Positions 4,287 through 42,274 of a stretch of DNA of 64,000 bases are shown here, in pieces. A program made the translations under genes and the position numbers. Location: assembly GCA_026745465.1 (NCBI GenBank), contig JACYXH010000001.1, forward strand, positions 124,001 through 188,000, given 5' to 3'. The notes under the pieces were generated by a model. It was not told where the DNA came from, ran no database searches, and worked only from the letters and a program-made list of their open reading frames with translations. The stretch is from Lota lota. Its lineage: Eukaryota; Chordata; Actinopteri; Gadiformes; Lotidae. Every line of letters starts with the position of its first letter. Position 1 is the stretch's first letter.

Positions 4287-4915
4287 TAGGGCTGGCCCAA
4301 ATACATCATTTCAAGCTTCGGATATTCATTAGGTCTGGAAACGAATATCCGAATATTCGGTGAAGGAAAAAGGTCCATTCATAGTGCGTGTCTTTCACTG
4401 GCTGTAAACGTAGCAGGCGGAGACCACTGCTGCAGAATAACGTGCTATCAACTGATCGTTTTCTAAAGTGGTTCAATTGGTAAAACATGTTATTTTAATA
4501 ACGAAGTCTAGCAAAACAACAATATCACGTCAGTGGCTTTCAGATCCACTCATCAGCCAGAGTTCGACTTGGTTACAGCAGAGCTTCAATGCAGCCTAAA
4601 AGTTTCCGAACTCGGTTTCCAAAGCATGAGAGTAGGCCTACTTCCAACTATCCCAAAGCATGAGAGTAGGCCTACTTCCAACTATCCCAAAGCATGAGAG
4701 TAGGCCTACTTCCAACTATCCCAAAGCATGAGAGTAGGCCTACTTCCAACTATCCCAAAGCATGAGAGTAGGCCTACTTCCAACTATCCCAAAGCATGAG
4801 AGTAGGCCTACTTCCAACTATCCCAAAGCAAATGGAAGGTTTGAACATTGTGCAAAGCTTTGGACACATTTCACGGCAGGACTAGTGCCATTTCCCCGGT
4901 GATAAATCACACAGC
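4287..4915 (+). mobile_element. hAT-like element, partial copy A with internal 34-base VNTR
   Basis: Starts tagggctggccc and is closely similar to the first half of the hAT element at 36023-37102. Contains six 34-base units (4621-4824); the other copy has three at the same place. The right end with its inverted repeat is not found; similarity stops after about 4910. Confidence 0.7.
4621..4824 (+). repeat. 34-base minisatellite, 6 copies, inside a hAT element
   Basis: Unit begins aaagcatgagagtaggccta and recurs with period 34 at 4621, 4655, 4689, 4723, 4757 and 4791, almost without change. The homologous site in the second element has copies at 36337, 36371 and 36405. Confidence 0.95.
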
Positions 4916-19556: not shown

Positions 19557-19836
19557 GGAAATGAATGTCATTTGAAAATGAAGGACATTCCCTCCGCCTC
19601 CAACATACAAACACAACATGTCGTGTCTGTATGTTTCTACAGTTCTTTAGTTCCACGATGGCACAGCTCAAGAAAGTGTGTTGCAGAGTGCTAGTGCTAG
19701 ATAATTACAAATCACAAAAGTCCGCTCATGTTGTTTCCTGAAGAAGTTGGTCATTAGATGTTTCTTGAAATGGACTAATCTTTGCCAATGGACAGCCAAG
19801 CATTTAGACAAATTGACTGTGTTGTTTTTGGAGCAG

Positions 19837-27849: not shown

Positions 27850-28100
27850 TTGTTTGGCCCGGGCCTCCTCCCTCATCACTGCAACCTGATGCACAGCGAG
27901 GGCCTGGTGACGGTCACGCCCCACGGAGCCGACGCCGACACCTTGGTCGACGGCCAGCGGGTCAACGAGACCACGGTGCTGCACTCCGGGTCCACCCTCC
28001 AGTTTGGCGCCGCCCACGTCTTCAAGTTTGTAGACCCGGCGTACGACCAGGGCAGCAAACGAGACCCGGCCGGCATGATCAGAGGCCGACACAAGTCCGG
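27850..28100 (+). CDS. afdn: afdn coding exon 11: FHA domain core
   Basis: Encodes LFGPGLLPHHCNLMHSEGLV, then TVTPHGADADTLVDGQRVNE, TTVLHSGSTLQFGAAHVFKF, VDPAYDQGSKRDPAGMIRGR and HKSG. The LFGPG, PHHC, VTVTP and HVFKFVDP blocks are the FHA core shared with mammalian afadin. Phase 0 in, phase 2 out (GG|gtgagt). The intron begins with a G/T-rich stretch in which the donor-like motif GTGAGT(GGG) recurs for 200 bases. Confidence 0.96.
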
Positions 28101-28302
28101 GTGAGTGGGGGTGGGTGGGTGTGAGTGGGTCTGGGTGGGTGTGAGTGGGTGTGTGTGAGTGAGTGGGTGGGTGGGTGGGGCTGGGTGAGTGGGTGGGTGG
28201 GTGTGGGTCTGGGTGGGTGTGAGTGGGTCTGGGTGAGTGGTTGTGTGGGTGAGTGATTGTGGGTGTGAGTGGTTGTGTGGGGGTGAGTGGGTGTGGGTGA
28301 AC
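28101..28302 (+). repeat. GTGAGT/GGGT-rich simple repeat beginning at the exon 11 donor
   Basis: Starts with the donor gtgagtgggg itself and continues for about 200 bases as variants of gtgagtggg, gggtctgggtgg and gtgtgag. Many internal gg|gtgagt strings look like 5' splice sites. G-runs suggest possible G-quadruplexes. Confidence 0.9.
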
Positions 28303-35878: not shown

Positions 35879-37285
35879 CCTCTTCATCCCGAAATGGCCC
35901 TTATCCGGGTAAATTTAGTGCTATAGGGCTACCGACATATAATGCACTAGGTGGTATTCAATCTAAAACATGACATTTATTTCAGGTGGAAATGAAATCT
36001 TCCACTTGCGCTGTGTTTTAGCTAGGGCTGTTCCTGAATACATAATTTCAAACGAATATCTCAATATTCGGTGAAGAAAAAAGGTCCATTCATAGTGCGT
36101 GTCTTTCACTGCCTGTAAACGTAGCAGGCGGAGACCACTGCTGCAGAATAACGTTTTATCAACTGATCGTTTTTTTTTTAAGTGGTTCAATTGGTAAAAC
36201 ATATGTTATTTTAATAACGAAGTCTAGCAAAACAACAATATCACGTCAGTGGCTTTCAGATCCACTCATCAGCCAGAGTTCGACTTGGTTACAGCAGAGC
36301 TTCAATGCAGCCTAAAAGTTTCCGAACACGGTTTCCAAAGCATGAGAGTAGGCCTACTTCCAACTATCCCAAAGCATGAGAGTAGGCCTACTTCCAACTA
36401 TCCCAAAGCATGAGAGTAGGCCTACTTCCAACTATCCCAAAGCAAATGGAAGGTTTGAACATTGTGCAAAGTTTTGGATACATTTCACGGCAGGACTAGT
36501 GCTATTTCCCCGTTGATAAATCACACAGGCACTATTGTGGGGGACTGATCACCATAAAAGGAAAATCATCGCTACCTGTTCTATTCATGTTGACTAAATA
36601 ACCAACACGTTATTATTAGTAGGTAGAGTTTTTCGGTGTCTTTTGGACTCGTTTGAACATTGAAATAGCTGCTAAATACGTTCATTGTTAAAACCCTTCT
36701 AAAAACGCCCCGATGGCCGGGGGGGTTGATGGCTTGCTTATCCTCACACTGGACGGCAGCTGTCAAAGTGCTACCGGACCATTTGAATAATGTTTGAATA
36801 TCCAAAACAAACGAATTCTATTTTGGTCGTCCCATATTTGGCCATTCTGATGATGGCTGCCGTTACCTCAACTGAAGCGTTGACGTGAAGCGTTCTCTGA
36901 CGTCTAACGCCTTTATATATATCTTATCACTGGGATATTCAGACGACATGTAACCTAGCCTTCTGCCCACAGTCCCCAAATATGCATACATTAAAAACAT
37001 GTTTTTTTTATACTTTATTATTTTTCATCAAAACAAAACGAATATCCGAATACTGAATTGAGATTCGATTAACGAATATCCGAATAGTCGGGATCAGCCC
37101 TAGTTCTAGCTCTAGCTTTATTTCCTCTAACCAAGTATCCACATTGATTATTTCACTTGGCACAACAATCTCCCAGGTGTTACCTTTCTTTTGGTACCGA
37201 GATTACATATAATAGCCCTTGCAGTTGTGGAGATAATAACATACTGGGTATGTTATTTTCAGAAACAGGCCTAGTGATGTTGAGG
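35879..37285 (+). mobile_element. piggyBac-like element, copy 2, split by a hAT insertion
   Basis: TTAA flanks at 35875-35878 and 37286-37289; ends cctcttcatcccgaa and tgttgagg. Lacks about 750 bases present in copy 1. The hAT element at 36023-37102 sits inside. Outside it the flanks join to match copy 1 (tccacttgcgctgtgtt | ctagctttatttcctctaac). Confidence 0.8.
36023..37102 (+). mobile_element. hAT-like element, copy B, complete, with target duplication
   Basis: Ends tagggctgttcc ... ggatcagcccta are inverted repeats. Flanking 8-mers gttttagc (36015-36022) and gttctagc (37103-37110) match at 7 of 8 bases. 1080 bases, no transposase; subterminal gaatatccgaatattcg motifs at both ends. Contains three 34-base VNTR units (36337-36438) where copy A has six. 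Confidence 0.85.
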
Positions 37286-40824: not shown

Positions 40825-40988
40825 GTGTGCACAATTTTGCCCTCTCTTTCTCTTTGTCTCGCTTCTACCGTTCCCACTGGCTCACTCTTTTCTCTTGAAC
40901 ACAATGTCCTTCCTGCCTCATTACCTCATCAGTGTAACTGTGCACTGCTGTCTAAGCATCTCCCCCCCCCCCCACCCCCTCCCTGCAG

Positions 40989-41254
40989 AGGACGTGCTGC
41001 ACACACTGACGGGTGCCATGTCGCTGCTGCGGCGTTGCCGTGTCAACGCCGCCCTCACCATCCAGCTGTTCTCCCAGCTCTTCCACTTCATCAACATGTG
41101 GCTGTTCAACAAGCTGGTGACGGAGGCGGACTCGGGCCTGTGCTCCCACTACTGGGGAGCCATCCTGCGCCAGCAGCTCAGCCACATCGAGGCCTGGGCC
41201 GAGAAGCAGGGCCTGGAGCTGGCTGCTGACTGCCACCTTAGCCGCATAGTGCAG
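40989..41254 (+). CDS. afdn: afdn coding exon 18: DIL domain core
   Basis: Encodes EDVLHTLTGAMSLLRRCRVN, AALTIQLFSQLFHFINMWLF, NKLVTEADSGLCSHYWGAIL, RQQLSHIEAWAEKQGLELAA and DCHLSRIVQ. The most conserved exon of the window. Phase 1 in (G|AG), phase 0 out. The donor CAG|gtaccg is weak (mismatches at +4 to +6) and is the first member of a 17-copy minisatellite that repeats the exon end and the donor together; G-runs follow each copy. Confidence 0.97.
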
Positions 41255-41850
41255 GTACCGCAGGGGGGAGGGGGCGCATAGTGCAGGTACCGCAGGGGGG
41301 AGGGGGGGGGAGGGGGCGCATAGTGCAGGTACCGCAGGGGGGAGGGGGGGCATAGTGCAGGTACCGCAGGGGGGAGGGGGCGCATAGTGCAGGTACCGCA
41401 GGGGGGAGGGGGGGCATAGTGCAGGTACCGCAGGGGGGAGGGGGGGGGGTGCACAGTGCAGGTACCGGAGGGGGGAGGGGGCGCATAGTGCAGGTACCGG
41501 AGGGGGGAGGGGGGGCATAGTGCAGGTACCGCAGGGGGGAGGGGGGAGGGGGCGCATAGTGCAGGTACCGCAAGGGGGAGGGGGGGGAGGGGGCGCATAG
41601 TGCAGGTACCGGAGGGGGGAGGGGGGGCATAGTGCAGGTACCGCAGGGGGGAGGGGGGGGAGGGGGCGCATAGTGCAGGTACCGCAGGGGGGAGGGGGGG
41701 AGGGGGCGCATAGTGCAGGTACCGGAGGGGGGAGGGGGCGCATAGTGCAGGTACCGGAGGGGGAGGGGGGGGAGGGGGCGCATAGTGCAGGTACCGGAGG
41801 GGGGAGGGGGCGCATAGTGCAGGTACCAGAGGTTCTGGGTAAGGGGTAGG
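41243..41850 (+). repeat. Minisatellite that duplicates the exon 18 5' splice site, 17 copies
   Basis: Unit cgcatagtgcaggtaccgca + ggggggaggggg, 29-42 bases. The first unit is the last 12 bases of exon 18 plus its donor; 16 more copies of gtgcag|gtacc follow in the intron (the first near 41285, the last near 41823). Reading through the native donor gives a stop at 41279-41281, supplied by the second unit. G-runs make G-quadruplex formation likely. Confidence 0.96.
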
Positions 41851-42130: not shown

Positions 42131-42274
42131 GCGACCACCCTGCTGACCATGGACAAGTATTCCATGCAGGACGTTCAGAACATCCACAACACCTGCTTTA
42201 AGCTCAACTCCCTGCAGCTCAACGCCCTCATGACCAACTACCACTGTGCCCCTGATGAGCCTTATATACCGCCT
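42131..42274 (+). CDS. afdn: afdn coding exon 19: DIL domain end
   Basis: Encodes ATTLLTMDKYSMQDVQNIHN, TCFKLNSLQLNALMTNYHCA and PDEPYIPP. Matches mammalian ATTLLTMDKY...CFKLNSLQL...YHCAPDEPFIP. Phase 0 in and out. Acceptor gtgcattgccag; donor cct|gtaaga, which runs directly into an AC microsatellite. Confidence 0.96.

Follow-up and report, generated by a model that had tools for sequence, protein, structure and literature searches.

A minisatellite spanning the exon 18 donor junction of an afadin gene in Lota lota

We describe a tandem array in an afadin gene whose repeat unit contains the native 5′ splice site of exon 18, that is, a donor-spanning minisatellite (VNTR) placing near-identical donors in a row within a 64,000-nucleotide stretch of DNA (hereafter the window). 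The array is clearly a naturally occurring member of a class of repeats that is known but rarely described, able to disturb splicing, and with human ABCA7 as its best-studied case. Taken as a whole, it is best explained, probably though well short of certainly, as a chance junction-spanning minisatellite in which copy 1 acts as the main donor and leakage from the later copies decays, without a selected function.

Results and Discussion

Anatomy of the array

TRF places the array at 41243–41827 (32-base unit, 16.5 copies), with an overlapping row extending to 41832, and an exact count gives 17 copies of the 11-mer GTGCAGGTACC within 41243–41832 (Table 1; a slash marks the exon–intron boundary). 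A sequence-only reading of the window had proposed that the unit holds the last 12 exon bases together with the 5′ splice site, and that the true donor heads a row of 17; both proposals are borne out by the count, the first copy being the native donor plus the last 12 coding bases of afadin exon 18. The span given there (41243–41850) stands at its start and is refined at its end, since the regular array stops near 41832 and a single degenerate GGTACCAGAGG remnant continues to ~41860.

Successive copies of GTGCAGGTACC are spaced by 32, 42, 32, 32, 32, 37, 32, 32, 39, 41, 32, 41, 40, 32, 40, and 32 bases, the spread of 32–42 arising because the G-run part of the unit varies. Variation between copies lies mainly in this part, plus two positions counted from the first base of GTGCAGGTACC (C/G/T six bases before it, C/G twelve bases after it); CATAGTGCAGGTACC is exact in 16 of the 17 copies, the seventh reading CACAG. 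Nested periods of 72 and 112 bases are also present. The assembly (575 Mb) contains the 16-base core GCATAGTGCAGGTACC 16 times, always on the + strand within the exon 18 array, and the same core read backward as a control nowhere.

Table 1. Features of the afadin gene in the window.
Feature	Position in window	Strand	Basis
Afadin exon 18, 266 nt, human residues ~760–848, part of DIL region	40989..41254	+	tblastn, 92% identity; Pfam DIL
Native 5′ splice site CAG/GTACCG, last exon base 41254	41252..41260	+	reading frame runs on exon-to-exon, RIVQ/ATTLL
Minisatellite, 17 junction copies, unit CGCATAGTGCAG/GTACCG(C/G)AGGGGGGAGGGGG	41243..41832	+	TRF and exact counts
TAG, in frame with exon 18 on use of any later donor	41279..41281	+	reading-frame count
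Five canonical G-quadruplex motifs (predicted)	41295..41778	+	motif search
C-rich 3′ splice site tract of exon 18, complementary to the G-rich array	40959..40988	+	predicted duplex −57.7 kcal/mol
Next afadin exon (19), 144 nt, in-frame length, continues ATTLL in frame	42131..42274	+	tblastn
G-rich array starting at an earlier afadin exon's donor, CGG/GTGAGT (last exon base 28100)	28099..28299	+	TRF, site count

Consequences of later-donor use

The gene model derives from tblastn with a human afadin query, and exons 18 and 19 keep the numbers of the first reading. On this contig (C1) afadin exons occupy the window between 14.4 kb and 60 kb and continue for a further 18 kb past it. Exon 18 ends CGC ATA GTG CAG/GTACCG, and its length is not a multiple of 3; its skipping (266 nt) would shift the frame, that of exon 19 (144 nt) would keep it. 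A Pfam DIL match (2.3e-29) covers both exons and a PDZ match falls in later ones, where the PDZ piece has five afadin/AF-6 sequences and fly canoe as its six best PDB matches.

Donors 2–17 would add 32 to 568 nt to the transcript, and each of these 16 would first meet an in-frame stop at the TAG of 41279–41281. The earlier claim that any later copy retains this stop, cutting the protein off before its PDZ domain, agrees with both the frame reading and the Pfam/tblastn positions: judged by sequence, later-donor products would end inside DIL. Transcripts with such early stops are decay targets by the usual exon-junction rule, and those from later donors should be too.

Relatives of the array

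The same gene holds two further arrays at donors. The G-rich array at an earlier exon's donor (Table 1) carries ten further GTGAGT sites, and a second junction-spanning array (63-base unit, 3.9 copies) lies ~6.5 kb past the window end at L018:6482–6724, where it closes the exon for human residues ~1544–1604 and is followed by a more diverged copy. The unit of this second array comprises ~30 coding bases, the GTGAGA donor and the intron start, and reading through it gives stops; as in exon 18 the unit spans an exon–donor junction, but long G-runs are absent.

Other arrays were observed in afadin genes. A 40-base × 28 array (L018:3211–4331) begins ~20 bases past a further afadin donor, that of an exon ending at ~L018:3191, and in a second afadin gene a 14-base array (L010:2253–2415) starts ~five bases past the donor of the exon 19 equivalent. 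The exon that follows human residue 1605 contains a coding tandem repeat (L019, ~190–275) whose Glu/Arg-rich unit is read through the exon end; here, the array habit reaches the protein.

Among known systems, the G1P3 minisatellite is said to have a short unit and coding added copies, whereas in afadin the extra copies bring a stop. The title of Turri et al. (1995) states that this G1P3 (IFI6) minisatellite provides multiple splice donor sites. For the VNTR in intron 18 of human ABCA7, excerpts of the published report (PMC5954066) give a reference size of 592 bp in 23.7 units of 25 bp, retention of one unit that is independent of length and raised by cycloheximide, and skipping of exon 19 that increases with VNTR length. 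On these excerpts the ABCA7 VNTR resembles the afadin array in starting at the native donor, in holding a donor in each unit, in its similar size, and in that use of the second donor retains one unit, shifts the frame and reaches a stop (in afadin, TAG 41279 for 16 of 16 later donors). They also indicate three differences: the ABCA7 unit starts at GT whereas that of afadin repeats 12 coding bases as well; the ABCA7 VNTR sits in a C-rich region whereas the afadin array is G-rich; and length polymorphism and its effects were measured for ABCA7, whereas the afadin array is known from the sequence of one assembly.

With ABCA7, G1P3, and two more afadin arrays to set beside it, the suggestion that few VNTRs are built from a splice junction overstated their rarity. 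The exon 18 array provides a clean natural test of spliceosome choice among 17 near-equal tandem donors, and suggests that the ABCA7 arrangement recurs by chance wherever tandem repeats abound; junction-copying arrays are therefore to be expected when genes are predicted or variants called in genomes of this type.

Origin of the array

We infer that a tandem duplication across the afadin exon–intron junction, in a tandem-repeat-dense genome, started the minisatellite, which would then have grown into the intron, coding selection holding copy 1 and leaving the remaining copies free to vary. A second afadin gene (C239, L010; 69% identity over exon 18) informs on the direction of this change: its equivalent exon ends HIVQ with donor CAG/GTTAGA and its corresponding intron lacks the array, so that the array likely derives from the exon end and came later. 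Its far edge (GTACCAGAGGTTCTGGGTAAGG) is probably where the original intron resumes.

Tandem repeats cover 15% of the window and 16% of the 254 kb examined (drawn from the window and its flanks, from the second afadin gene, and from nine other stretches, which do not form a random sample), a load reminiscent, as a guess only, of that in Atlantic cod as excerpts of PMC5241972 describe it. Donor-specific seeding of arrays was considered for this afadin gene and found no support. Scored as a 20-base match with 15 to 17 identical positions no more than 1.5 kb away, copies are found at 2 of 28 donor junctions versus 11.7–14.6% of 3000 random positions; the 28 stand alongside at least four located exons that have no placed donor (near 19834; extended starts 69309, 74113, and 77851). 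The absence of an excess over random points to background rather than donor seeding. When only the first 20 intron bases are used, 3/28 donors (17/20 matching) and 5/28 (16/20) have a copy, about the random rate, and none of 17 afadin acceptor junctions, part of those located, has such a copy at that distance, the random range for donors and acceptors together being 11.7–14.9%. The second afadin gene has copies at none of its nine placed donors (11 patterns tried, 2 dropped) versus 9–10% of 2000 random positions. Proximity of arrays to afadin donors is likewise not in significant excess, at 7/24 within 50 bases (4.3 expected, P = 0.12) and 5/24 within 20 bases (3.7 expected, P = 0.32); near acceptors, some at approximate positions, the counts are 2/16 and 0/16. 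In a genome this rich in repeats, chance alone can account for the exon 18 array.

Choice among the donors

By an approximate donor weight matrix, the native exon 18 donor (0.24 bits) is the weakest of 24 afadin donors, and the highest-scoring GT of intron 18 reaches at most 4 bits. The predicted U1 pairing of the native donor (−7.3 kcal/mol) is mid-range, 11 of the other 23 donors being weaker and one tied. The proposed weakness at positions +4 to +6 is upheld as regards departure from consensus and matrix score, but not as regards U1 pairing.

All 17 copies have 6–9 G-runs in the 100 nt downstream, and the seven counted there for the native donor agree with the G-runs expected downstream of it. 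Upstream, runs of at least three G in 100 nt number 3 for copy 1 (9 G), 4 for copy 2 (17 G), 5 for copy 3 (31 G), and 6–7 for copies 4–17 (37–45 G). Excerpts of a TP53 paper report that G-runs enhance splicing from the intron downstream of a donor and silence it from the exon, via hnRNP F/H, and those of an HNRNPH preprint and map report the same split between intronic enhancement and exonic silencing. Copy 1 would remain the main working donor because copies 2–17 carry heavy exon-side G-runs, the position where hnRNP H/F reportedly represses. One or a few units would be expected to be retained at a low level, as in ABCA7, with the leaked transcripts decaying. Against this preference, three short G-runs lie upstream of copy 1 too, and where equal donors are duplicated the intron-proximal copy is favored.

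Alternative explanations

The alternative that survives best, although we consider it unlikely, is that copy number acts as a dial on afadin splicing, the native donor being masked in longer arrays as neighboring donors pair (GGUACC is self-complementary) and as the C-tract ahead of exon 18 pairs with the G-rich array. Exon 18 would then be skipped, with a frameshift, or form circles, or exon 19 would be skipped in frame. Folding lends this some support: the predicted unpaired fraction of the native donor drops from 0.40 with one copy to 0.32 with two, 0.24 with three and 0.12 with four, masked in the model because its GGUACC pairs with that of its neighbor. However, the effect saturates there (0.11–0.12 from four copies up to 17), the final 0.11 falls inside the range of the 23 other afadin donors (0.00–0.61, folded with shorter flanks), and the model excludes G-quadruplexes and proteins. 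In the full array this same model ranks copy 1 (0.11) less accessible than the later-copy mean (0.30), with copies 3, 6, 8, and 11 at 0.40–0.52, such that it would favor some of these over copy 1, a result that also counts against copy 1 as main donor.

The predicted C-tract/array duplex is the strongest of 16, the 15 other stretches at or near acceptors giving −20.0 to −38.0 kcal/mol, and was equaled by 1 of 1500 random 30-mers. Such pairing could interfere with exon 18 as a whole, which counts against the chance explanation. Both pairings were noticed after looking, which weakens them as support for a dial; they are leads for a length-dependent effect. The first reading, which suggested that the array might reinforce or shift donor use and vary in length, made no mention of the exon-side G-runs of copies 2–17, the self-complementary donor core, or the C-tract. 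The climb of ABCA7 exon 19 skipping with array length, as excerpted from that report, would be an analogous behavior. A fuller version, in which the array masks itself with G-quadruplexes in its loops and copy number sets the share of afadin mRNA keeping exons 18–19, appears improbable; the array does contain the four runs of at least three G with short loops from which a G-quadruplex may form, and its G4Hunter score is 1.66. Were copy number to act in this manner, then, with the second junction array and the donor-abutting array, repeat turnover would give this species splicing variation that is heritable and mutates fast, in a gene of cell junctions.

We see a similarly poor prospect for selection having kept the array for G-runs that would strengthen a weak native donor. 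The matrix ranking given above would suit this proposal, as would the seven downstream G-runs, a higher number than at all but one of the gene's 23 other donors, and the TP53 excerpts describe a weak donor inactivated by removal of at least four G-runs. Yet one or two units would already supply the G-runs, and a row of 17 does not call for such selection; pairing with U1 is mid-range, the second afadin gene manages without an array, and comparable arrays elsewhere in the afadin gene make chance sufficient. That the copy number is an assembly artefact is very improbable, for although G-rich arrays are hard to assemble and the nested periods might be read this way, the units differ in G-run length and in several bases.

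Intron gain by tandem AGGT duplication, in which the duplicated segment supplies donor and acceptor within coding sequence, was rejected: AG/GT is present, but the G-rich unit has neither acceptor nor pyrimidine tract and the copies sit in an existing intron. Among 138 minisatellite rows (overlaps unmerged) from the non-random 254 kb, CAGGT occurs in 8 forward and 15 reverse-complement units versus 2 and 0 in reversed-unit controls, a contrast to which we give no weight. One 34-base unit, CCAAAGCATGAGAGTAGGCCTACTTCCAACTATC, forms two perfect arrays ~31 kb apart (4619–4830 and 36335–36444), and its presence at two places suggests a dispersed repeat family.
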